Source of the DNA: Akkermansia sp.
GTDB lineage: Bacteria; Verrucomicrobiota; Verrucomicrobiia; Verrucomicrobiales; Akkermansiaceae
DNA length: 21,822 nt
Direction of reading: 5' to 3'
NCBI GenBank assembly: GCA_020047775.1
Contig: JAIFNK010000142.1
Location: 1-21,822 of the forward strand
The notes beneath the pieces were generated by a model. The model saw only the letters and a list, made by a program, of their open reading frames with translations. It searched no databases and had not been told where the DNA came from. Of the stretch, positions 734 to 16,270 are shown piece after piece. Position 1 is the first letter of the stretch; every line of letters begins with the position of its first letter. Position numbers and translations under genes: made by a program.

Positions 734-754
734 AAATTACCAAATGTGTAATTT
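734..754. promoter_or_regulatory. Inverted repeat, candidate operator of the toxin-antitoxin operon
   Basis: AAATTAC (734-740), a 7-base spacer and GTAATTT (748-754) form a perfect inverted repeat in an AT-rich patch just upstream of the HigB-like gene. Toxin-antitoxin operons are usually autoregulated by the antitoxin binding such a site. The repeat covers an in-frame upstream ATG at 744, which is one reason to prefer the internal start at 798 for the toxin. Confidence 0.45.
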
Positions 755-797
755 TAAGGTTGACGGGGTCCGATTGGTTCGGCAGAGTTCGGGCAAC

Positions 798-1118
798 ATG
801 ATTGTCACGGGATTCACCAAACAATTAGGGAGCGACGCGGAACAGAAATGCGCGGGGCGCTTTCTGGCATGGCTGGGCGAGGCAAGGAAGGGTCAGTGGA
901 AAAGCTGGCCGGAACTGCTGCGGCGCTTTCCGACCGCCCGTCGCATGGATGATCACGAGGCCCACTTTCCGCTGGCGGCGGATGGCACCGGAATCCGCGC
1001 GGCGGTGATTTTCAATCCCGGCGTGTTGCGCCTGCTGTGCATCGCCCCGGCCACGGCGGCTCGCCGCCAGATCCCTCTGTCCCATCCTCACAGCCAGCCA
1101 CAACCCCATGAATCCTAA
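798..1118 (+). CDS. HigB-like type II toxin (RelE-superfamily mRNA interferase family)
   Basis: The frame encodes 106 aa from ATG 798. An in-frame ATG at 744 would add 18 residues of non-coding-looking sequence overlapping a probable operator, so I reject it. Starting at 798, the block FLAWLGEARKGQWKSW followed by LLRRFPTARRMDDH falls where HigB-family proteins carry their L-R-A-W, W and F-P-x-A-x positions. Residues such as FPLAADGTGIRAAVIF match the family's central beta strands. The last ~25 residues (ARRQIPLSHPHSQPQPHES) do not match the usual HigB ending and may reflect a family variant or a small frameshift. The next gene starts 8 bases downstream, consistent with a toxin-first higBA layout. 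In this family the toxin cleaves mRNA at the ribosome. No clear Shine-Dalgarno site is visible. Confidence 0.65.
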   Translation: MIVTGFTKQLGSDAEQKCAGRFLAWLGEARKGQWKSWPELLRRFPTARRMDDHEAHFPLAADGTGIRAAVIFNPGVLRLLCIAPATAARRQIPLSHPHSQPQPHES

Positions 1119-1126
1119 TCCAAACT

Positions 1127-2353
1127 ATGAAACCAATCAAAACTCCCGAACAACACGCCGAAGCACTCTCCTGCCTCGACTCCCTGTTTTCGCGAGGTGA
1201 AAGCCTGACCCAGGAGCAAAGGGACGAACTGGAGATCCTCGCCACCCTGATCGAAAAATACGAGCGGGACACCTACCCCGTAGCATCCCCCACCCCGCTG
1301 GAAGCCATCAAGTTCCGCATGGAGCAGATGGGTTACAAACAGAAAGACCTGGCCGGACTGGTGGGCGGCGCGAGCCGGGCCTCCGAAATCATGACCGGCA
1401 AGCGCGGGCTCACCACCGAGATGATCCGCCGACTGCGGGACGAGTGGGGTATCCCCGCCGACTCTCTGCTCGGCGGTGCCACGCCCGACCCCGACCCATC
1501 CGCGCCGACTCCCGGCGCGGATGGCGCGTACGATCCCGACAACTACCCGCTGAAGCAGATGTACGGCCGCGGATATTTCCCGAAATATTCCAACGACTGG
1601 AAGGGCCACCGCAAGGATCCTGCAGGGCTGCTGCGGGACCTCTACCCACACGGCTCCGGAGTGCGGCGGGAACTGGCCCATTGTCGGCAAGGTGGCGGCG
1701 AAAACGCAAAGGCCAACCGGCACGCGCTGGACGCCTGGCAACACCGGGTGCTGGTGCGGGCGGCGGAAAAAAAGAACCTGCCCGCCTATGACCGTGCGGC
1801 GCTAGATGGGAATTTCCTGCGCTGGCTGGCCGGACTGAGCGTGCTGACGGATGGGCCGCGGCTGGCCTGCGAGGCGCTGGCGGAGAAGGGCATCGCCATG
1901 GTGATCGAGCCGCATCTCGAACAGACCTATCTGGACGGAGCCGCCCTGCTAGGCAGCGACGACCGGCCGGTGATCGGGCTCACCCTGCGGCACAACCGGC
2001 TGGACAATTTCTGGTTCACCCTCTTCCACGAAATCGGCCACGTGCTGTTCCACCTCTCGCCCGAGAATCCGGTAATTCTCGATGTGGACATCGACCGGAG
2101 GAAAACCGATGTGGTCGAGACCGAGGCAGACCGCTTCGCGCTGGACACGCTGATCCCACCGGGCGCGTGGGACGAGCAGGTGCGCCACCTGCACTTGGCC
2201 GCCGAAATCCGCGCCGCAGCCAAGCGGCTGTGCGTCCATCCGGCGGTGATCGCCGGTCGCCTGAGACGCGAGGCGAACGACTACCGCATGCACCGCACGC
2301 TGGTGGGCTACAACGAGGTAAAAACGGTCTTCGGCATCACGGAGGAAAACTAA
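1127..2353 (+). CDS. HTH antitoxin-like regulator fused to an ImmA/IrrE-type zinc metallopeptidase
   Basis: This is a 408-aa protein. Residues 1-50 resemble the N-terminal extension of HigA-type antitoxins. Residues ~55-108 form an XRE/HigA helix-turn-helix (YKQKDLAGLVG, then SEIMTGKRGLT). After a linker of about 100 residues, the C-terminal half is an ImmA/IrrE (peptidase M78) domain: the zinc motif HEIGH is at residues 301-305, and ETEADRFA at 331-338 supplies the expected third acidic ligand. It starts 8 bases after the HigB-like gene and is presumably co-transcribed with it. HigA antitoxins are usually about 100-120 aa. The fused peptidase suggests that repression or toxin neutralisation may be released by proteolysis, as with ImmA/ImmR systems; this is inference. 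HTH-ImmA fusions are well known, but their pairing with a HigB-like toxin is less usual. Confidence 0.85.
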   Translation: MKPIKTPEQHAEALSCLDSLFSRGESLTQEQRDELEILATLIEKYERDTYPVASPTPLEAIKFRMEQMGYKQKDLAGLVGGASRASEIMTGKRGLTTEMIRRLRDEWGIPADSLLGGATPDPDPSAPTPGADGAYDPDNYPLKQMYGRGYFPKYSNDWKGHRKDPAGLLRDLYPHGSGVRRELAHCRQGGGENAKANRHALDAWQHRVLVRAAEKKNLPAYDRAALDGNFLRWLAGLSVLTDGPRLACEALAEKGIAMVIEPHLEQTYLDGAALLGSDDRPVIGLTLRHNRLDNFWFTLFHEIGHVLFHLSPENPVILDVDIDRRKTDVVETEADRFALDTLIPPGAWDEQVRHLHLAAEIRAAAKRLCVHPAVIAGRLRREANDYRMHRTLVGYNEVKTVFGITEEN

Positions 2354-5144: not shown

Positions 5145-5464
5145 ATGCCTTTAAGGATTGGATAGAATTTCGGTCGATTTCCTTATCCCGGCAGGGATTG
5201 CAGCGGATAGCCCGGGGTCGAGGAGCGGTAGCGACGACTACCCCGGGTCTCGGTTTTCAAAGATTCGCACCCTGAAAGGCGTGCCAGAAGGGCTCGATGC
5301 ACCACGGACATCCGCTACTTCTGCGACCCACTACCGGGGTCGAATTCTTCTATTTCCTCGTTTCCCCGGGTGTTCGTCGCTGTCGCTCCTCGACCCGGGG
5401 CTACAATCCGTGATCCCTGCCGGGATCAAGAAGCGAAGTGCAAGGATCCAATCCTTAAAGGCAT
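5145..5464. repeat. Long inverted-repeat element (~320 bp) with 19-bp perfect ends
   Basis: The ends are perfect 19-bp inverted repeats (5145-5163 and 5446-5464; outer words ATGCCTTTAAGGATTGGAT and its complement). A second pair of 61-base arms (5187-5247 and 5364-5424) is about three-quarters complementary, including GAGGAGCGGTAGCGACGA against TCGTCGCTGTCGCTCCTC. About 115 bases lie in the loop. No transposase is inside and I see no clear target-site duplication. The element sits between two convergent genes (potA and ABC-F), so it could act as a bidirectional terminator or be a MITE/REP-like repeat. The open frames crossing it are products of the repeat and not real genes. The remaining bases to 5587 hold only a short hairpin, GGGCCTTTGGCCC at 5528-5540. 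Confidence 0.8.
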
Positions 5465-7646: not shown

Positions 7647-8078
7647 TCAGTCGGCCGTGGACGGGGCCGAAAGCACGAGGCTGCGGGAGAGCTTGGTTGC
7701 GGCCTTTTCAAAGGTCACGAGCGGCAAACCGTTGGTGGTGTATTCCGCGTGAATCAGGCGGTCGAGGAATCCCGGTTTGGCGGTGGCGAGTCCGGCGACG
7801 GAGAGCAAATCGATCAGTCCGGGCTGAACGACGAAAGTGGGTAGGGAAAGTAGGTTGAGCAGACCTTGGAAAATCTCGGACTTCGCCATCCGGTAGTGAT
7901 GCTGACAGGCGAAATAGGCTTCGGAGACCACGAGATTCGAAACAAAGACGACGACTCCGGACTCCTCGACTTCCGCGAGATAATCACGGGCGACTTCGGC
8001 AAGGGGCTCTGGCTGGCCGGTGAGCAACCGCATGAGGACGGAGGTGTCCAATCCGGCGCGGATTTCAGGACGGTTCAT
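7647..8078 (-). CDS. vapC: PIN-domain toxin, VapC-like
   Basis: The protein is 143 aa with the PIN fold pattern: Asp11 in GLDTSVLMRLL, Glu53 in VVSEAYFAC, Asp106 in GFLDRLIHAEY, and Glu124 in VTFEKAATKL where many VapC proteins have TFD. These acids would bind Mg2+ and give the ribonuclease activity of VapC toxins. Its start overlaps the end of the antitoxin gene by 14 bases (8065-8078), the usual antitoxin-first arrangement with translational coupling. The target RNA cannot be predicted from the sequence. Confidence 0.85.
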   Translation of the reverse strand: MNRPEIRAGLDTSVLMRLLTGQPEPLAEVARDYLAEVEESGVVVFVSNLVVSEAYFACQHHYRMAKSEIFQGLLNLLSLPTFVVQPGLIDLLSVAGLATAKPGFLDRLIHAEYTTNGLPLVTFEKAATKLSRSLVLSAPSTAD

Positions 8079-8331
8079 TCCAGTTCTCTACGATGCTTTT
8101 CCGGATGGATTCCGAAGAGTGGTCGGTCACGTTTTCCGGAACCAGATGAGCCAATGGGGCCTTGAAATTCCGCCAATCGACCGCTGGTGAGACTTTCGTA
8201 GCAGGCTTTCGCTCACGCAGCCATTGCTCGAAGAGACTGATCGTCACATCCCGCAGGGTGCGCCCTTCGCGGGCGGTTTCTGCTTTCACTTCGCGGTAAA
8301 GCTCATCGGGAATCTGAAAGGTGGCTTTCAT
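8065..8331 (-). CDS. vapB: Antitoxin, ribbon-helix-helix type (VapB-like)
   Basis: The protein is 88 aa. The N-terminus MKATFQIPDELYREVKAE followed by GRTLRDVTISLFEQWL is a ribbon-helix-helix (CopG/MetJ-like) DNA-binding module. The C-terminal ~45 residues are polar and probably wrap the toxin. It overlaps the PIN toxin gene by 14 bases. A perfect inverted repeat lies 3-18 bases before its start codon, which fits autoregulation of the pair. Confidence 0.8.
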   Translation of the reverse strand: MKATFQIPDELYREVKAETAREGRTLRDVTISLFEQWLRERKPATKVSPAVDWRNFKAPLAHLVPENVTDHSSESIRKSIVENWNEPS

Positions 8332-8349: not shown

Positions 8350-8422
8350 TCATGGCCTGAGGTCAAGGCTCCGGATCTCGTCAAAAGTCCATTCCCCATG
8401 AGAATTGAACGCCAAGTGTGGG

Positions 8423-8527
8423 ATTTTCATCGCCAAACCAGATCAAGCCCCGATCTGCCTTGCCGCCTGCAGCGTGTTTTTCATCAACATCGCGATGGTC
8501 ATCGGGCCGACGCCGCCGGGCACGGGG
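8423..8527 (-). repeat. Displaced copy 1 of the folD 3' end (candidate attachment-site remnant)
   Basis: Bases 8443-8527 match the last 85 bases of intact folD (15389-15473) at 83 positions by hand alignment, including the stop codon. In the reverse strand it still encodes the FolD C-terminus from [10 protein letters not shown] to AARQIGA and the stop. Upstream of 8527 the match ends abruptly, and unrelated sequence follows in the folD 5' direction. The block ATTTTCAT at 8423 occurs at the same 24-base distance as in copy 2, so the shared unit extends past the stop codon. No start or catalytic part of FolD is present, so it is non-functional as an enzyme. Confidence 0.9.
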
Positions 8528-8635
8528 CTTATAGGATTGCAGCCCGTTCTTCTGCGCGAATTTCGCCAAACCCGGTATGTGTTCGCCGAGCAGGGAGCGG
8601 GAAGGTCCAACGAGATTGATGACGGCGAGGCGCAT
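8528..8635 (-). pseudogene. Truncated 5' fragment of a type I phosphodiesterase/nucleotide pyrophosphatase-like gene
   Basis: From ATG 8635 the reverse strand reads [19 protein letters not shown] and then [14 protein letters not shown]. By recall this matches the start of alkaline-phosphatase-superfamily phosphodiesterases (MKLAVINVVGLTPxLLGEHTP...). After about 34 codons the frame runs straight into the displaced folD 3' copy, out of the FolD frame, so the rest of the gene (normally several hundred residues with metal-binding motifs) is missing. The fragment starts 9 bases after the stop of the ATPase gene. It probably marks a deletion or recombination junction. Confidence 0.5.
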
Positions 8636-8644
8636 GGGATGATA

Positions 8645-9772
8645 TCAAGCAAGAGCCTCCAAGGGCAGTACTTGAATGGATTCCCCGAGAGGATAGGACT
8701 TACGTCCCGGGTAGATGACAAGAAGCTCGTCTAACTTCAAATCATCCATGGCGATTTTCATCGAAGCGGTGAGTTTGGGAGCGTCCCGCCGCTTGCACTC
8801 GATGCCGATCCTTTTTCCATCCTTGAACAACAGGAGATCGAGCTCCGCGCCATTGTGGGTGGCCCAGAAATACTCCTGATCCGGTTGATAGTGGCGGAGG
8901 GTTTCCTCGATCGCGTAGCCCTCCCAGGAAGCGCCGATCTTCGGATGGGTGAGCAGGTCGTTTTCGGATTTGATATGGGTGAGTGTGTGGAACAGCCCGG
9001 AATCCCGGAAGTAGATTTTGGGCGCTTTGACTTGCCGCTTCCCGAGATTTTCATGCCAAGGTTGTAGCTGGCGAATCATGAAAGTGTGGGTGAGAAGATC
9101 CACATAGCGCCGGGTCGTCGTGGCCGAAACGCCCATCGAGCCGGCGATCTCCGACGCATTCCAAGTCTGCCCATGACAATGGGCGAGCATGGTCCAGAAC
9201 CGCATCATGGCGACCGGGGAAATTCCCATTCCTGATGCAGGCAGATCCCGCTCAAGAAAAGTGCTGACAAATCGACTCCGCCAAACGGAACTGTCCTGGT
9301 CGTTTTCCGCCAGATATGACAGGGGGAATCCCCCGCGCAGCCAATGCCGTGGCATCGCAGTCGCACCGACTTCCGACAGATTAAAGCCGGTCAACTCCAA
9401 GGTCTCGATGCGACCGGCCAAGGACTCCGACGATTGCCGGAGCAATTCCGGAGCCGCGCTGCCGAGCACGAGGAACTTCGCGGGATTCGGCTGACGGTCC
9501 GCAAGCACCCGCAGCAGCGGGAATAACTCCGGCTTGCGTTGGATCTCATCGATGACGACCAAGCCCGTCAAACTCTCCAGCGCCAGCTTGGGCTGATCCA
9601 GGCGGGCCAGGCTCTCCGGATCTTCGAGATCGAAATAGTTCACCGAATCCGGTGGGACAAATTCCCGCGCCAAGGTAGTTTTTCCACATTGCCGGGGACC
9701 CAACAACGCGGTCACCCGGCTCCGGCGCAGGGCGGTTTCAATCTTGGTTTTTACGCCGTCACGGTGAATCAC
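8645..9772 (-). CDS. AAA ATPase with DUF4143 C-terminal domain
   Basis: The protein is 375 aa from GTG 9772 ([18 protein letters not shown]); a nearby ATG at 9774 is out of frame and meets TGA at once. The N-terminal AAA_14-type domain has Walker [12 protein letters not shown] (P-loop residues 25-33), Walker [15 protein letters not shown] and the sensor stretch [15 protein letters not shown]. The middle region contains a winged-helix-like segment ([23 protein letters not shown]). The C-terminal DUF4143 part reads [16 protein letters not shown] followed by [15 protein letters not shown], a restriction-endonuclease-like fold pattern (E, D, ExK). The cellular role of this widespread family is not settled. 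It is the only intact gene between two folD 3'-end copies and has a 14-bp perfect inverted repeat just upstream. Confidence 0.88.
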
Positions 9773-9781
9773 ATCCCGAAA

Positions 9782-9824
9782 TTACCATGAAAATTGAATA
9801 CTTAAAGTAGAATTTTCATGGTAA
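9782..9824. promoter_or_regulatory. Perfect 14-bp inverted repeat upstream of the DUF4143 ATPase
   Basis: TTACCATGAAAATT (9782-9795), a 15-base AT-rich loop and AATTTTCATGGTAA (9811-9824) form a perfect inverted repeat. It lies 10 bases before the ATPase start and 11 bases from the folD copy 2. It could be an operator over the ATPase promoter, a terminator-like hairpin after res, or part of an attachment site; part of its inner arm (ATTTTCAT) is also found beside folD copy 1. Confidence 0.65.
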
Positions 9825-9910
9825 AATCAATGCATGCTCCGATCTGCCGCGCCGCTTGCAGCGTGTTCTTCATCAGCATGGCGATGGCCATCGGGCCGCC
9901 GCCGCCGGGG
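9812..9910 (-). repeat. Displaced copy 2 of a folD 3' end, diverged allele (candidate attachment-site remnant)
   Basis: Bases 9836-9910 match the folD 3' end with about 8 differences in 75 by hand alignment. The reverse strand encodes [18 protein letters not shown] and then AARQIGA, differing from the resident FolD by V to G and T to A; the other changes are silent. The original stop is lost and the frame reads on through CIDFTMKILL. The match begins 1 base after the stop codon of res. The pattern of mainly silent differences says this copy came from a related but different folD gene. Confidence 0.88.
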
Positions 9911-9911
9911 A

Positions 9912-12392
9912 TCAATCGCCATGGTCTTCGAACAACGACTCCAAATCTCCCGCTGCCACCATTCGTAGCGCCTTCTTTCGCACTAAAGAATCAGCAACAT
10001 CGACTACCTGCATTCTCCCATCTTTCATTCGTCCAACCATCAACCGGCCGAAATCCATCCCATGCTTGTCCGCAAACTGAGCGAGGCCCTTGACCTTCGC
10101 CCAAGTATCGTTCCGCGAATCATCGTGCGGCTCCAACACATCCACTTCATAGCTCTTGCCCTTCTTCCGAACGATGAGGAAGTCGGGATAAAAGGGTTTT
10201 TCCCCTGCCAATTCATAGGGCACGCAAAGCGCCCACGGGCGCCTGTCGAGATTTCTCAACCAACAGACGAAATCATCCGCCTCCATGGCGGATTCGAGAA
10301 ACTCAATCTCCCATGAATTCAAAGTCGCTGCGAAATCTCCCGCTTCATCGACAAAAAGGTGATTCTTCCAAATCTTGTCACCCGGTTTTTCCACGATGAC
10401 CTCTGGCAATTCCCACTCGTGAGTAACCGCCCTGCCGCTCGATTGGATCAACTGATGGAATCGTGCCCGCTCCGCTTCCGGCAGCTCCTTGATTTTCACC
10501 TTGGAGACCGCCCACAGCGCCTCGAACTCTTTCCTCGCCAGTTTTTCCATCGCGCCCAGCGTTTCGCCCTGCCTGATGATTGCGAACAACTCCAATTTCG
10601 AATCGCCAGGGTTCTCCTTGTCCTGATAGCGCTTCCAATAGCTCCGGTGCAACCCCTCGCCCGCCGCAAGCACACGGCCCGACTCATCAAAAAGCTGATC
10701 GATGTTCTCCTGTGAAAGCACGAGCTTGGTGGTGTTGGTGGTCGTGGCCTTCATGCCGCCAACCGAAATGTGCGTTACATCCACCTCGATCTCTCCTCCC
10801 TCGCGCACCACTGACCGCCAATCCTTCTCCCGCTTCGCATAAAGCTCCCCGAGTTCCTTAAGCTTTCCCGTCAGGGTCTCCCGCATCTTCTCATCGGCCT
10901 TCTTGTCGATCCCTTCGTGAACCAGCAACCCAGCAAGCCGCAACGCCCGTTTCACATCACTCATCCTGGGTGCGCGATTCACACTGTAGGTGGGGAGCTT
11001 CGCGAGGTGCTTGAAGACATCGGTAAAATCCGGATTCCGGCCATAATACCCGGCATCCGTGGTGGTTTTGCTTGGCACTCCGTCATGTTCATCCGGGCTG
11101 CGGAGTTTCGAGAGCACCGCTTCCAGTGTCTCCTTGTCGTAGTGCGGCAGGAAGAGTTCCACCGTATTGAGCGCTTCGTCGCTCTCGATCCGCCTGGCGA
11201 GCGGTGTCCGGATCATTCGTCCCACAAGTTGGGCGATGCTGGTCGGATCCTGAGCGCGGCGGAAACTCATCATCACCTCGGCACGCGGGCAATCCCAGCC
11301 CGTCGTGAGCGCGGTTTTGAAAAGAACCACCTTCACGTCCTGCGCGTCCTGAATCCGCGATGCGTCCATCCGCCGGATGATGCGCTGCCCATACTGGATT
11401 TCTTCTTTGTCCTGGAAACAATGCACGATCTCATTGACAGCCAGCGGACCCGTCTGTCGTTCGATCACCCGGACCACGTCATGCAGTGGCGTCTTAGTCA
11501 GCGTGCCTTCGCTTCCGTCCTCCACTTGCACGACCAGCACCGGCCTTACCTTGTCCCGCTCTTTCTCCCGCGTGCAGTATTTTTCCCAACGGTCACGGAA
11601 CTGCTTCCAGCGGGCGGCGGCGTTTTCCAGCAACGTCAGATCGCTCTCGGCATTGGTCTTGGGGCAGGTGGCGATGATGAGATCCTTTAGCAATCCGCTC
11701 TCGCGTACCATCTCGGGCGTGATGTTTACCGGCCGCTGCGTGCGGCTTGTGTTTCCAAGCAGTTCCGTAAAGCGCTGGGGCGTCGCGCTCATGCCTAGAA
11801 CCAAGGGAACCGCCGGCAATCCATCCGCCTCCGAGCCAGTGATGAACTTCTGCATGATCGGCTTTCTCGACTTGTCCGTCACGCCTGCTCCGCGGTGCGC
11901 CTCATCAATAATCAGAATGAAATCCTGCGGGGACTCTGCGATGGTGTTGGCCACCGTTTGCCAGAAGGTGAACGTCTTCTTGTCTCCACCTTTGGTCAGC
12001 AGTTTGTCTTTGCCGAGGAGCTGGGTGTTGATGAAATACAGACAACCGGGCTGCAAGCGCTCCTCGTCGAAGCTGTCGCTCTCCACAGTGAAAAGCTTGT
12101 GAAAACGCAGGTGCTCGCAAGCTGCCATGAGCTTGCTTTTGCTTTGCTGGTTGAGTTCCGGGGAGTCGGACAGCCAGAGAAACGTTGTCTGCGGCCTTGG
12201 AACGATTCCGTCTTCGCCACCCAGCAGCCAATCGATGACAGCTGCCACGGTGATGGTTTTGCCCGATCCGGTCGGCGCGCTCAGAACGATTGCCTCCAAG
12301 TCGCCCTCCGCCACGCTTTGTCTTGCCTGCGACAGCCGCGACAGAATCAAGCGGGCCGATGTGTTCTGGAAATCCTTCAGTTCAAATTTCAT
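9912..12392 (-). CDS. res: Type III restriction enzyme Res subunit (DEAD/DEAH helicase-nuclease)
   Basis: The protein is 826 aa with superfamily 2 helicase motifs in order: SAPTGSGKT (P-loop, ending at residue 46), IIDEAHRGAG (DEAH 163-166), MSATP (SAT 202-204), TGWDCPRA (364-371) and AQLVGRMIRTP (about 387-397). Near the C-terminus, YPDFLIV (Asp737) and YEVDVLEPH (about 748-756) fit the PD-(D/E)XK nuclease core, although the canonical ExK lysine is not where expected. In type III systems Res works with Mod: ATP-driven translocation or sliding between two unmethylated sites leads to cleavage. Its start is 6 bases after the antitoxin-like gene. The stop codon almost touches the folD copy 2, so the operon ends at the island boundary. 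Confidence 0.87.
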   Translation of the reverse strand: MKFELKDFQNTSARLILSRLSQARQSVAEGDLEAIVLSAPTGSGKTITVAAVIDWLLGGEDGIVPRPQTTFLWLSDSPELNQQSKSKLMAACEHLRFHKLFTVESDSFDEERLQPGCLYFINTQLLGKDKLLTKGGDKKTFTFWQTVANTIAESPQDFILIIDEAHRGAGVTDKSRKPIMQKFITGSEADGLPAVPLVLGMSATPQRFTELLGNTSRTQRPVNITPEMVRESGLLKDLIIATCPKTNAESDLTLLENAAARWKQFRDRWEKYCTREKERDKVRPVLVVQVEDGSEGTLTKTPLHDVVRVIERQTGPLAVNEIVHCFQDKEEIQYGQRIIRRMDASRIQDAQDVKVVLFKTALTTGWDCPRAEVMMSFRRAQDPTSIAQLVGRMIRTPLARRIESDEALNTVELFLPHYDKETLEAVLSKLRSPDEHDGVPSKTTTDAGYYGRNPDFTDVFKHLAKLPTYSVNRAPRMSDVKRALRLAGLLVHEGIDKKADEKMRETLTGKLKELGELYAKREKDWRSVVREGGEIEVDVTHISVGGMKATTTNTTKLVLSQENIDQLFDESGRVLAAGEGLHRSYWKRYQDKENPGDSKLELFAIIRQGETLGAMEKLARKEFEALWAVSKVKIKELPEAERARFHQLIQSSGRAVTHEWELPEVIVEKPGDKIWKNHLFVDEAGDFAATLNSWEIEFLESAMEADDFVCWLRNLDRRPWALCVPYELAGEKPFYPDFLIVRKKGKSYEVDVLEPHDDSRNDTWAKVKGLAQFADKHGMDFGRLMVGRMKDGRMQVVDVADSLVRKKALRMVAAGDLESLFEDHGD

Positions 12393-12398
12393 GCGGCG

Positions 12399-12641
12399 TC
12401 ATTTCTTCTGGTTGCCGTAAGGCGGGTTTTCCTCGCGCAGCAGTAAGGCTTCACGTTCCTGTTGCTCGGCCCATTCGCGAAGTTCCGCCGCGTTTTTGAC
12501 GCGTGGGCCTGAGTGTGGATGCTCCGCCGCCCAGCGGCGGGTGTTCTCGCCCATGCGGCGCACATCGTCACCGGCTTCGACGGCCAGCGCGTCCTTGATG
12601 CTCCAAAGCTCCTCAAAAATCGGGTCGGTTTTCGTTTTCAT
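12399..12641 (-). CDS. Small antitoxin-like protein paired with the PIN toxin
   Basis: The protein is 80 aa, charged and helical, starting MKTKTDPIFEELWSIKDALA and continuing with GDDVRRMGENTRRWAAEHP. By recall, small proteins of this type (an M-x-DPI-x-EE-x-x-x-x-(K/R) start) commonly sit next to PIN-domain genes with the YIETS motif and are taken to be their antitoxins. Its start overlaps the 3' end of the PIN gene by 29 bases, so translation is likely coupled. It lies 6 bases upstream of res. No DNA-binding motif is visible. Confidence 0.68.
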   Translation of the reverse strand: MKTKTDPIFEELWSIKDALAVEAGDDVRRMGENTRRWAAEHPHSGPRVKNAAELREWAEQQEREALLLREENPPYGNQKK

Positions 12642-13119
12642 AAGGCGAGTCTCCCATCAATTCCAAGGGGGTGCAAACATTGGGCAGCACCCATCCACGG
12701 CGGGCGGCCTCACGCTCCAGGCGGCGAAGGATCTGGGCATTGGCCAAATGGCGGCAATTCCACGTCAGCAAATAGTCGGCCTCCGCTAAAGTGGCCACCG
12801 CGAGATGCACGGCGTCGGCCCGGGCAGCGGGCGGCAGGCTGCCGGTTGCCAGAAACTGAGCGGCAAGCTCCACCGCGGCCGTCGAAATCGGGAGCGCCGC
12901 CATGCCCGCGAGTTTTTCCAAGCGCAGGTGTGCCTGCCGCTCGTTGCCTAGGGACGCTTCGCGCAGGGTTTCGTCCGATGTCACACAAACAAAAGACTCC
13001 CGGCGCAGTTGCCACCAATCCCGCGTCACCTGCTGGTTGCCCGCGATGCTCAAGTCCCGGCTGGGGTCCGCTACCAACAGGCTCACGAAACTGGTCTCGA
13101 TGTAAACGATCTCCCTCAT
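12613..13119 (-). CDS. PIN-domain nuclease, VapC-like toxin, inside the mod-res operon
   Basis: The protein is 168 aa from the ATG at 13119-13117, which overlaps the mod stop codon by one base (TGATG). PIN-type acidic positions are Glu8 in VYIETSFVS (this subfamily often has Glu in place of the first Asp), Glu54 in ETLREAS and Asp102 in ARADAVHLAVA, followed by LLTWNCRHLANA (Asn121) near the end. The motif YIETS...WNCRHLANA is, from memory, a recognisable PIN subfamily annotated as type II toxins. It is followed by an overlapping small gene of the expected antitoxin type. Here the toxin precedes the antitoxin, opposite to the VapBC pair at 7647-8331. The longer open frame upstream to 13407 is an antisense extension through mod and is not used. 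Confidence 0.83.
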   Translation of the reverse strand: MREIVYIETSFVSLLVADPSRDLSIAGNQQVTRDWWQLRRESFVCVTSDETLREASLGNERQAHLRLEKLAGMAALPISTAAVELAAQFLATGSLPPAARADAVHLAVATLAEADYLLTWNCRHLANAQILRRLEREAARRGWVLPNVCTPLELMGDSPYENENRPDF

Positions 13120-15242
13120 CAGCGCAGCACCTCCGGCAGGTTGATACGGAAATTCTCCAAATAGTTTTTGTAAAGCTGCACGCACTGATAGCGACGGCCC
13201 AGCGCCCGGCGCATCTGGGAGAAGTTCTCCTCGCTGTCCGTCACTAGAAACAGCCACTCGATGTCCTTGCGCTCGTCGAGCTTCGCCCGGAAGTCCCGGA
13301 ACTCGCTCTCCCGGATCAACACTGCGAACGGCGAACGCTTTGGAATGAACCACGGCGTCGAGCCCTTGGAGTCTTCCCGCTCGCCCCGACAACCGGCCAT
13401 CATCCACAACACCGGCAGAATCGCCTTGAAGGAATCCCCTCGGGCCACCTCGTCGGAATCGAGAAAATCCAGGCGGAAGTATTCGAGGTTTTCTTCAAAG
13501 CCATCACTGAGAGATCGGCCGCTTAAGTAGCTGCCGACTAAAGGTTTTCCATCAGATGCACAGCCAGAGATGGCGTTTCGGCATCTGGGCCAAGTAACAC
13601 TTTCGGCGATACCTTGTTCTTCATACTGCTTCATGCCGGGCAGAATTCCTCGCTTCTGAAGCTCTTGGCCCGCCTTGTATTCAGCTTCGTTGTTTGTTAC
13701 CAAAATTGCTCGGCGACGGCCGGAATCTTCAGAGTTTAAAAGAGCTGTCGCGTGCATCGTCGTGCCAGAGCCCGCAAAGAAATCTAAAATTAGAGCGTCC
13801 GGCTTGTTTCTGACAATAGCGCGTAGGGAGTCACGAACGGCATATAGCGATTTAGGGAAATCGAAATTGACCTCCTTTCCAACAGTCGAACGCAACATGC
13901 TCGATCCATAGATTCCAGAATCGTGAAAGCCACGATGCCACACCGTTTTGATATTTCGCTGTCTGGCCTCAGCACTGGAATATTCGACTTCAAGCGCACC
14001 GGTCACAGCATCTTTTCCAACAATTCTTATCTCTCCTTTGTCGATACGACCTCGTGAGCCCTTGTTGAGGTAAAGAATCGTCCAAGTGTTACGCTTTTTG
14101 TCAAATCCACCAAGCTTCACAAAACCTCCATAAATAAGCTCACGTAACGTTGATGGTTTGGCTTGCCAATTTCCGTAGGAACCATCGGTTCGTAAGGGCC
14201 AAGCAACAGTACCGGGCGTAAAAGATGAAAGGTCTGGATTCTGTCCAATCGGCAATGGTTCCCCAACCTTAGTTATCACTTTTGTAGTTGGATCTACATG
14301 AATTGGATAAAAGAGATTCGGCCGGTCCTCTCGTCGAGAATTGTTACCCCCACGCAACAACCACTCCCACCTTGGAACCTGAAATCGTTTCTGATCGGAT
14401 TGATCGGGAGAGAGAAGATCATCGTGATGCGTGTCTACCTTGGCATCTGGTTTGAAAACAAAAATTGCATATTCCTCAACTCTGGCAAGACGGCCCTGCG
14501 AAACACCCTTCTGATTGATGACAATAGTGACCATCTGCTGGGTGCATTCCGAGTAATTTTGCTCAAGAAGCATTCCAAGATGGTGAACTTCGTGTTCGTC
14601 GATAGTGACAATCAACACACCATCCGGCTTCAGCAACCGTTTCGCCAGCAGCAGGCGTTTTTTCATCATGGACAGCCATTTCGAATGCCGGAAGGAATCC
14701 GTCTTGTCCACGTAGTCGTTGTTGTATTTCCAATCGCGGGCACCGGTGTTGTAGGGCGGGTCGATGTAAATCACATCCACCTGGCCTTCGTAACAGTAGA
14801 GCAGGAGCTGGAGGGCGTGGAAATTGTCCGAGTTGATGAGCACGTTCCACGGCTTGTCCGGGCCGCCGCGGGCGATGCGGTCCACCGGCACCAGAGCCGG
14901 ATAGATCGAGTCGCCGAAGCTGCCGACCACCACCAGCTCCGCCACCGGCACCTCTCCGCCCTCGTCGGCACCAGTGGAATAGCCTTCGACAGGTTTGACC
15001 AAGTCCGCCTTGCCCTTGCGGATCGCCCTCACTTTCCAGACCTGATTTCCGCCTTCCCGCTTCTTCGCCACCAGATCCCCCACCTTCACCGGCAGGTTCG
15101 GCAACCGCACCGTTTCCGGCAGATGTTCCTCGAACACCAGACCGAATTTCTTGTTCTTCTTCAGGTCACGCACTTCCGCCGCAACTGCCTTGCGCAAGCG
15201 TTCGTCGGGAATCTGGGCGATGAGATCTTCAATCTTGGCCAT
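13119..15242 (-). CDS. mod: Type III DNA methyltransferase Mod subunit (beta-class N6-adenine)
   Basis: The protein is 707 aa from ATG 15242 (MAKIEDLIAQIPDERL). The catalytic motif is DPPYNT at residues 161-166 and the S-adenosylmethionine-binding motif is DFFAGSGTT at 487-495; catalytic motif first is the beta-class order typical of type III Mod. The region between them should include the target-recognition domain. The N-terminal ~120 residues carry a small domain (LPVKVGDLVAKKREGG) seen in such proteins, and the last ~130 residues contact no known motif. The stretch coding roughly residues 217-577 is clearly less GC-rich than the rest of the gene. The stop overlaps the PIN gene start by one base. 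The recognition sequence cannot be predicted. Confidence 0.9.
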   Translation of the reverse strand: MAKIEDLIAQIPDERLRKAVAAEVRDLKKNKKFGLVFEEHLPETVRLPNLPVKVGDLVAKKREGGNQVWKVRAIRKGKADLVKPVEGYSTGADEGGEVPVAELVVVGSFGDSIYPALVPVDRIARGGPDKPWNVLINSDNFHALQLLLYCYEGQVDVIYIDPPYNTGARDWKYNNDYVDKTDSFRHSKWLSMMKKRLLLAKRLLKPDGVLIVTIDEHEVHHLGMLLEQNYSECTQQMVTIVINQKGVSQGRLARVEEYAIFVFKPDAKVDTHHDDLLSPDQSDQKRFQVPRWEWLLRGGNNSRREDRPNLFYPIHVDPTTKVITKVGEPLPIGQNPDLSSFTPGTVAWPLRTDGSYGNWQAKPSTLRELIYGGFVKLGGFDKKRNTWTILYLNKGSRGRIDKGEIRIVGKDAVTGALEVEYSSAEARQRNIKTVWHRGFHDSGIYGSSMLRSTVGKEVNFDFPKSLYAVRDSLRAIVRNKPDALILDFFAGSGTTMHATALLNSEDSGRRRAILVTNNEAEYKAGQELQKRGILPGMKQYEEQGIAESVTWPRCRNAISGCASDGKPLVGSYLSGRSLSDGFEENLEYFRLDFLDSDEVARGDSFKAILPVLWMMAGCRGEREDSKGSTPWFIPKRSPFAVLIRESEFRDFRAKLDERKDIEWLFLVTDSEENFSQMRRALGRRYQCVQLYKNYLENFRINLPEVLR

Positions 15243-15368
15243 GGACTGGCAACAGGCTATGACGCTGCCGGATGGTGGGAAGGGAAAAAAGTAAGAACTC
15301 AAACAACTCGCTTGGTTGTAATCACCAACTAGCCGAATGGCTGCTTCCTTCCCGTGGGAATGGAGGCA

Positions 15369-15473
15369 AACAGCAAGGTAAAACCGACTCAAGCCCCGAT
15401 CTGCCGCGCCGCCTGCAGCGTGTTTTTCATCAACATCGCGATGGTCATCGGGCCGACGCCGCCGGGCACGGGG
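15369..15473 (-). repeat. Intact folD 3' end matching the two displaced copies (candidate attachment site)
   Basis: This is the reference copy of the 75-85 bp sequence repeated at 8423-8527 and 9812-9910, all in the same orientation. Here it forms the functional C-terminus of FolD ([10 protein letters not shown] to AARQIGA). Just past the stop the bases GGTAAAA at 15377-15383 also match the flank of copy 2, so the shared unit runs about 15-20 bases beyond the gene. The PGG(V)GP motif is strongly conserved among FolD proteins, which would make it a dependable insertion target. Confidence 0.75.
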
Positions 15474-16270
15474 GTGATGGCGGAGCAAAGCGGGGCGACT
15501 TCCGCGTAAGTGACGTCGCCGGTGAGGCGGTAGCCGGATTTTTTCGAGGCATCCGGCACGCGGTTGATGCCCACGTCGATGACGACGGCTCCGGGTTTCA
15601 CCCAGTCGGCCTTGACCATTTCCGGGCGGCCGACGGCGGCGATGAGGATGTCCGCGCGGCGGCAGATGGCGGGCAGGTCCTTGGAGCGCGAGTGGGCGAT
15701 GGTGACGGTGGCATTGGAATTTTTGGCGACTAACAAAAGCGCCATCGGCTTGCCGACAATCATGCTGCGGCCGATGACGACGGCCTCGGCGCCGTTGGTG
15801 TTGATGCCGGAAACCGCGAGCAGTTTCATGCAGCCGGCCGGGGTGCAGGGGACGAAGCCGGTGGGATCCTCGAGCACGAGCTTGGCGACGTTTTCCGGGT
15901 GGAAGCCATCGACATCCTTGCGCGGGTCGATGGCGCGGATGACGGCTTCCTCGTCGATGTGCTTGGGCGGCGGCGATTGCACGAGGATGCCGTGGACGGC
16001 GGGGTCGTTGTTCAAATCACGGACGACTTGGAGCAGTTCCTCCTGGGTGGTTTCCGCCGGGAGTTCGATTTTCAACGAGTGGAATCCGAGCTCGGCGCAG
16101 GTGCGGGCCTTGGAGCCGACATAGACTTGCGACGCGGGATCGCTGCCGACGAGCACCACGGCGAGGCCGGGGCGGATGCCCATGGCTAACAAGGCGGCGG
16201 TTTCCGCGCGGCACTCGTCAAGCACGGCGGCGGCTACGGATTTTCCATCGAGGATTTTCGGTGAGTTCAT
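15389..16270 (-). CDS. folD: Bifunctional methylenetetrahydrofolate dehydrogenase/methenyltetrahydrofolate cyclohydrolase
   Basis: The protein is 293 aa, the usual family length, from ATG 16270. FolD interconverts 5,10-methylene-, methenyl- and 10-formyl-tetrahydrofolate in the cytosol, feeding purine and formyl-Met synthesis. Visible signatures are [13 protein letters not shown] with Tyr50 and the catalytic Lys54, [27 protein letters not shown], the NADP-binding [17 protein letters not shown] and the C-terminal [19 protein letters not shown]. It follows the DUF374 gene by 10 bases, so the two are likely co-transcribed. Its 3' end is the sequence duplicated at 8443 and 9836. Transcription reading out of folD would run into mod. 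Confidence 0.96.

Follow-up and report, generated by a model that had tools for sequence, protein, structure and literature searches.

The locus described here raises the question of how three copies of one gene end came to delimit two groups of defence-type genes. To our knowledge, how small defence genes without a recombinase enter chromosomes is poorly understood. The window (the whole stretch of DNA that was analysed) is the entire contig JAIFNK010000142.1, 21,822 bp long, of a metagenome-assembled genome of Akkermansia sp. (G000; 57% complete, 337 contigs). In this window the 3′ end of folD recurs twice, and between the copies lie a type III restriction-modification (R-M) operon (island A) and a gene for an AAA_14-DUF4143 protein (island B), assigned to the candidate defence family PDC-S01. 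We propose, with a probability of roughly 0.6, that the three folD ends are the footprints of at least two additive insertions between folD and a downstream gene of the AP family, most simply by single crossovers of circularised fragments. AP denotes here the alkaline phosphatase superfamily, a name that also follows the source label of contig P0002. In our best reading, the locus exemplifies a broader pattern in which genes are inserted additively and a long piece of the target is duplicated, with PDC-S01 seen most often among the riders.

Copies of the folD end and their surroundings in relatives

A blastn search with the last 85 bp of folD (copy 1) against its own assembly (E 0.001) returned exactly three matches, all on this contig and in one orientation: the query itself, copy 3 (98% over 85 bp, E 5.8e-36) and copy 2 (90% over 77 bp, E 1.3e-23). 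No further copy was found by blastn elsewhere in this 57%-complete assembly. Read in the direction of folD, the order is folD; mod, a PIN-like gene, a small open reading frame (ORF) and res; copy 2; a palindrome; the DUF4143 gene; the start of an AP-family gene; copy 3; a degenerate palindrome; and finally a toxin-antitoxin-like pair, which comes after copy 3 (Table 1). A preliminary description of this DNA had reported both the recurrence of the folD end at two further positions in the same orientation and the presence, between the copies, of an AAA/DUF4143 ATPase and a type III R-M operon; blastn bears out the former, and Pfam and PADLOC agree with the latter. It can now be added that copy 3 abuts a gene fragment, the first 38 codons of AP.

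The AP fragment ends at codon 38, and copy 3 begins there, inside AP, at CCCGGCGG, which is common to AP and folD. Both displaced copies start at or near CCCGGCGG, copy 3 retaining a few extra folD bases (to position 8541 by tblastn). The ungapped repeat family reaches 125 bp, because copies 2 and 3 both carry a palindrome adjoining the folD end. By hand count, copy 2 differs from copy 1 by five synonymous and two other changes in 71 bp, and copy 3 by two synonymous changes. In two other metagenome contigs (P0002 and P0003), AP-family frames cease to follow AP at about codons 37-47, not far from the AP break in the window.

For comparison, folD loci were taken from 52 further genus members, some on contigs that end too early to show a neighbour. 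In 16 of the 52 an AP-family gene lies within 1.7 kb past folD, eight of these gaps measuring 6-100 bp and the other eight 184-1,649 bp. The filled gaps, judged by eye, hold an AbrB/PIN-like pair (G033), a short nuclease-like ORF (G031), two ORFs (G002), a phosphotransferase-like ORF (G061 and G064) or no ORF of 60 codons (G035 and G069). The eighth gap, in G087, is occupied by orfX (an ORF in decay), then by a palindrome and a DUF4143 gene, with AP after them. The DUF4143 proteins of G087 and the window share 91% amino acid identity, and the DNA of the two aligns at 82% for 1,290 bp, a stretch that runs from the palindrome of copy 2 to the AP start and ends there. Since G087 has the palindrome-DUF4143-AP order, the AP fragment of the window sits where it is expected, after DUF4143, but cut at codon 38. 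An intact AP gene is present on a different contig of the same genome. Of the named relatives matched through folD, most are metagenome bins, with the labels Akkermansiaceae, Verrucomicrobiaceae, Akkermansia, Prosthecobacter or just Verrucomicrobia, and a protein 96% identical to the DUF4143 protein of the window carries the source label Luteolibacter.

A second folD-end copy linked to folD was found in two of 73 genus genomes, the source genome itself and G003; the 35 bp matched in G013 are a weak and unlinked hit. Past folD, G003 carries orfX and, beyond it, a displaced folD end of 38 bp (97%), whose continuation by eye resembles the folD end of G033 and not the folD of G003 itself. Such a piece is what an incoming end displacing the old one would be expected to leave. 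Across the order, 386 genomes were searched with a 31-residue folD peptide, a query that misses short copies such as that of G003. More than one match was obtained in four of them: the source genome (three), G011 (two, from two folD genes), G376 (two) and G141 (two). The second matches in G376 and G141 were not inspected, and partial folD-end copies are thus possible in at most three of the 386 (the source genome, G376 and G141). The two folD genes of G011 differ and lie on two contigs (G011:C35 and G011:C66), the first running off its contig end.

These genus and order counts speak against folD as a general hotspot, a reading that we reject. The preliminary description had interpreted the folD 3′ end as a site-specific island site; this is not supported by the same counts or by the joints, which differ in position within folD, the two in the window lying near CCCGGCGG and that of G003 about 40 bp further downstream. 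A literature search combining methylenetetrahydrofolate dehydrogenase with attB and integrase returned no paper on islands, judged by title. folD is probably not a special site, and the locus is probably a case of the broader pattern and not a new attachment site. The sequence downstream of folD in relatives had been put forward earlier as a check on the insertions; AP does lie directly after folD in some genomes, but extra copies of the folD end are rare.

Direct repeats around DUF4143 genes

DUF4143 loci were searched for flanking direct repeats of at least 30 bp (E 1e-3), a locus being testable if the gene was found with at least 300 bp on each side. Among the first 30 loci, direct repeats flanked 11 of the 29 testable ones, compared with 1/276 random windows of the same geometry drawn from folD loci. 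After 60 more loci, 73 of 90 were testable, with direct repeats at 28 and inverted repeats at four. When two loci fetched twice are subtracted, 26 of 71 DUF4143 loci of the genus lie between direct repeats; some of these loci are orthologous in sister genomes (L270/L271, probably also L233/L234), and independent events number fewer than 26. The repeats measure 34-265 bp and are 75-98% identical, and in 19/26 loci the downstream copy begins no more than 125 bp from the DUF4143 stop codon. With flanks of 300 bp, repeats were detected at 15/71 DUF4143 genes and at none of 302 adjoining windows; the latter were built around a centre of 500 bp, which is less than the length of the gene, since a centre of 1,130 bp gave no windows (0/0). 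Swapped flanks, compared on both strands at a looser cut-off, matched in 10/139 pairs, hence the stricter cut-off and the other controls.

PIN loci served as an accessory-gene control. Thirty were fetched and 24 were testable, with direct repeats at three and inverted repeats at two, a frequency of direct repeats that differs from that of DUF4143 with p 0.039 (Fisher). At these three PIN-domain genes (L308, L317 and L319) the direct repeats measure 279, 185 and 194 bp. In other genera of the phylum, 27 of 30 loci were testable, seven with direct and one with inverted repeats; two of these seven are doubtful, i.e. L348 (possibly tested in the wrong frame) and L364 (whose match, 583 bp long and 68% identical, may be due to a paralogous neighbour). 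Among plasmid loci outside the phylum, direct repeats were found at 2/12, one of them weak (30 bp and distant). The effect is strongest in this genus, is present in the phylum and is not exclusive to DUF4143. In the portions of the literature on PDC-S01 and DUF4143 that were available, nothing was found linking either to flanking repeats.

The repeated DNA is diverse. Besides intergenic DNA, it comprises the ends of folD and of genes that by eye are PQQ-like (L203) and rmlB-like (L213), the start of a recQ-like gene (L270/L271, by eye) and a gene start at L269, and an internal segment of a gene that by eye is pnp-like (L229). A single-copy empty DUF4143 allele was identified for the L213 locus. 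In this case, the flanks of the gene in G030, joined over one repeat copy, match the sister species G085 over 466/466 bases at 89%, with no DUF4143 between them, and G085 thus carries a clean single-copy empty allele. The two copies in G030 differ from each other at six positions and from G085 at 11 and 14; being closest to each other, they place the duplication in or near the G030 lineage. The layout of the window is also found at another site, L248 (G036:C441:4300-9600), where three direct copies enclose first a DUF4143 gene and next an AbrB/PIN-like pair, although the repeat there may be a dispersed one.

Possible routes of insertion

The proposed course of events would be as follows. A donor fragment from a related cell would have carried a folD end together with cargo, its far end having been joined to a folD end, either its own or that of the resident gene, in the case of the AP/folD joint at the microhomology CCCGGCGG. 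The fragment would have entered by recombination within the folD end, most simply when circularised and by a single crossover, so that folD remained complete and the displaced end was left beyond the cargo, starting at the illegitimate joint. The DUF4143 gene and the AP start would have arrived in one event and the type III R-M operon in a subsequent one, an order suggested by their nesting. A site-specific recombinase would not be required. Additive recombination of this kind would account for the abrupt starts of copies 2 and 3, the microhomology between AP and folD, the tandem pile-up, the lack of a recombinase among the window ORFs searched and the folD copies differing mainly at synonymous sites. 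Long direct target repeats on both sides of the inserted gene are present at the window as at the 26 DUF4143 loci, and insert-free relatives with one copy are represented by G085 for L213 and, for folD, by relatives of other species with folD directly before AP. The stepwise accretion of cassettes at one anchor, suggested in the preliminary description, is supported, a complete folD end being kept beside folD, and the unrecognised recombination route that it had named as an alternative fits the similar repeats that flank DUF4143 genes at many unrelated sites.

An excess of synonymous changes was also considered as proof of foreign origin. At ten loci, the script-filtered changes between repeat copies were 33 synonymous and 28 other, and at the seven judged truly coding they were 30 and 14. 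This argument is weakened, as an intact copy under selection yields the same excess without foreign DNA.

Several observations weigh against additive insertion from a related donor. G087 lacks a second folD end, and the eight filled folD-AP gaps yielded no folD-end remnant, with G064 borderline (its score was reached by 3/200 shuffles). The empty or near-empty gaps all come from other species, none from the same one. Copy 2 is not clearly nearest to G087, with identities of 65/71 to G087, 66/71 to G086 and 64/71 to the folD of the window. Both joints in the window lie near one place (CCCGGCGG), as a preferred site would give, and the L213 copies lend no support to a foreign donor there. Finally, some of the DUF4143 repeats may be dispersed ones, being intergenic.

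Among other explanations, a tyrosine or serine recombinase could have integrated the islands site-specifically at the folD 3′ end, the islands being mobilised in trans. This would agree with the common orientation, the restored gene end and the start of both displaced copies near CCCGGCGG. We nevertheless consider it very improbable: neither an integrase nor a resolvase or transposase was detected among 20 window ORFs searched against Pfam (a search confined to the window), in agreement with the preliminary description, the joint in G003 is displaced, and at most 3/386 order genomes could carry partial folD-end copies. Comparably little weight is given to an assembly chimera in this metagenome-assembled genome. 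Repeats of 77-85 bp can mislead short-read assembly, and the bin is fragmented; however, an 84-residue frame spanning the AP/folD junction has a 100% identical copy on a distinct contig of 8,154 bp, possibly from the same sample, which argues against an assembly error at this one junction, and the DUF4143-AP join recurs in the separate genome G087. An intragenomic tandem duplication, in which unequal exchange between CCCGGCGG of AP and of folD would have doubled the segment made up of the folD end and the AP start, with the copies diverging later, is improbable as well. The AP/folD joint is its expected product and copy 3 is 98% identical to folD, but the copy at the end of res is left unexplained, the window holds no AP further downstream (the intact gene being on another contig), and the changes in copy 2 are mostly synonymous, as if it had been coding before its displacement.

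A different possibility, which we regard as unlikely but worth stating in full, is that PDC-S01 is itself mobile. The ATPase-nuclease would act in a homing-like manner, cutting the unoccupied allele, and repair would insert the gene together with a stretch of target, the R-M operon later reusing the folD end. PDC-S01 would then be a solitary homing-like gene with target duplications of ~35-265 bp, the host gene being kept whole by a brought or copied end. The repeats do straddle DUF4143 genes more often than adjoining windows (15/71 against 0/302) and in most loci begin close to the stop codon (19/26), they are found in other genera of the phylum (7/27 testable loci, two doubtful), and catalytic-type E, D, E and K residues are 97-99% conserved in 114 sequences. 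Moreover, the nearest architectural analogue, the endonuclease ORFs of fungal mitochondria, is credited to the endonuclease in the available text of PMC3630166. Yet PIN genes are also flanked (3/24), so that the effect is not exclusive (p 0.039), there is no DUF4143 inside the R-M island, and the targets (folD, PQQ-like, rmlB-like, recQ-like, pnp-like and intergenic) look unrelated, with no specific target among them; outside the phylum, repeats occur at 2/12 plasmid loci, one weak. Additive insertion, with PDC-S01 as a rider, is the reading that we prefer.

Content of the window and comparison with known systems

Table 1. Features of the window, listed in the direction of folD
Feature	Position	Strand	Basis
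folD, intact	15389..16270	-	THF_DHG_CYH + THF_DHG_CYH_C (Pfam); stop at 15389; ATG at 16270 picked by comparison with relatives
Copy 1, last 85 bp of folD	15389-15473	-	query for the repeat search
Island A: type III DNA methyltransferase (mod)	13119..15242	-	N6_N4_Mtase (Pfam); MTase_III, E 2.5e-149 (PADLOC)
Island A: PIN-like gene between mod and res, within the type III R-M operon	12655..13119	-	PIN assigned by eye; without a family match in Pfam, PADLOC or NCBIfam
Island A: 80-residue ORF between mod and res	12399..12641	-	ORF list; no family matched
Island A: type III restriction subunit (res)	9912..12392	-	ResIII (Pfam); REase_III, E 9.5e-10 (PADLOC)
Copy 2 of the folD 3′ end, immediately past the res stop codon	9833..9909	-	90% over 77 bp
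Palindrome between copy 2 and DUF4143	9782..9824	.	14-bp perfect arms; z -5.8
Island B: AAA_14-DUF4143 protein, candidate PDC-S01	8645..9772	-	Pfam; PADLOC; PD-(D/E)XK-like residues E284, D312, E325, K327
AP-family gene, first 38 codons, fused to copy 3	8522..8635	-	intact counterpart G000:C282:3825-5168
Copy 3 of the folD 3′ end	8443..8527	-	98% over 85 bp
Degenerate palindrome past copy 3	8398..8430	.	folds no better than shuffles
Antitoxin-like ORF (from position)	8065..8331	-	no family in Pfam, PADLOC or NCBIfam
PIN-domain toxin-like protein	7647..8078	-	PIN, E 8e-07 (Pfam)

The DUF4143 protein of the window contains AAA_14 and DUF4143 domains (Pfam) and matches the PDC-S01 models of PADLOC, with a best E of 4.1e-86. 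According to the available sections of PMC12988326, PDC-S01 is the fourth most common defence across prokaryotes and joins an ATPase to the PD-(D/E)XK superfamily, and most such candidates still await experimental validation. In 114 length-filtered sequences, the four candidate catalytic residues are conserved at 98% (E284), 99% (D312), 98% (E325) and 97% (K327). An AlphaFold model has a mean predicted local distance difference test score of 86, and its fold matches in the PDB are mainly AAA and STAND ATPases, Card1 being at rank 17 of the 50 shown; a PDB sequence search gave no match at 0.1. The nuclease fold is thus a putative assignment, suggested by the residue motif and by the excerpted account in PMC12988326.

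An inverted repeat with arms of at least 8 bases surrounds the start codon in 31/71 DUF4143 genes, compared with 6/71 further upstream, 4/71 downstream and 3/71 in shuffled sequence. In many DUF4143 genes of the genus it forms a palindrome of 35-43 bp at the start codon, with half-sites such as CTTGAAAATC, CATGAAAATT and CCTTGCAAATC; similar palindromes lie upstream of some alphaproteobacterial plasmid homologues. The palindrome is probably an operator of DUF4143. It was also considered as a folD terminator or a dispersed repeat, both rejected in view of the enrichment at start codons and of the exact pattern, which occurs in 2/73 genus genomes (G000 and G033) and misses a variant in G087. If it is an operator, the palindromes after copy 3 and after folD in G033 would mark former places of DUF4143.

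Elsewhere, the window looks like a defence island. Two ORFs at 744-2353 (+) match PD-Lambda-2 A (E 6.1e-08) and B (E 1.1e-120) of PADLOC, and the next ORF (2527-2943) is without a match. As for the R-M operon, a relative of Res at E 1e-40 was found in one of 243 other family genomes searched, with 30% identity. Two further repeats were noted: a ~43 bp unit in three tandem copies at 403-544, close to the contig end, and, between two ABC ATPase genes at 5179-5432, an inverted repeat with 69-nt arms, 78% complementary and 116 nt apart.

The pattern suggests how defence genes get in. The repeats may be read as a footprint that points to single-copy empty alleles, with a very common candidate family, PDC-S01, often inside. 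Should the homing-like reading of PDC-S01 prove true, its abundance would be a sign of mobility, and the entry sites that it opens would also serve other small defence genes. The long direct repeats around PDC-S01 genes are the part most worth following up, the question raised being whether these genes move themselves or ride along. Where PMC12988326 was available, flanking long repeats were not mentioned for PDC-S01, whose models the protein of the window matches.

Three known systems offer comparison, each through the parts of the cited sources that were available. In Helicobacter pylori, R-M genes are inserted with a long target duplication (Nobusato et al. 2000, as described in PMC1643837 and PMC3031569). 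As here, genes of R-M or selfish type lie between long direct target repeats and an insert-free allele exists elsewhere, whereas the most frequent rider in our case is a single AAA-nuclease gene in Verrucomicrobiota, with a tandem pile-up at one gene end. Closest in architecture are the mobile endonuclease ORFs with duplicated carboxy-termini in the mitochondria of the fungi Allomyces and Glomus (PMC3630166), in which an endonuclease-type gene likewise separates the functional from the displaced copy of a host gene end. Those enzymes are of the LAGLIDADG/GIY-YIG type and occupy specific genes in organelles, with endonuclease-driven mobility reported, while the targets described here are diverse and include gene starts, and a mobility driven by the nuclease is hypothetical. 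Closest in mechanism are conjugation experiments in Escherichia coli, where trimmed circles entered by a single crossover and the homologous end was duplicated over 109-950 bp, and homology-facilitated illegitimate recombination, which used 3-10 bp of microhomology in most cases (PMC3240628). The latter shares with the proposed route homology at one end and an illegitimate joint at the other; it differs in that it was observed with laboratory constructs and typically deletes recipient DNA, whereas the pair G085 and G030 shows no such deletion.

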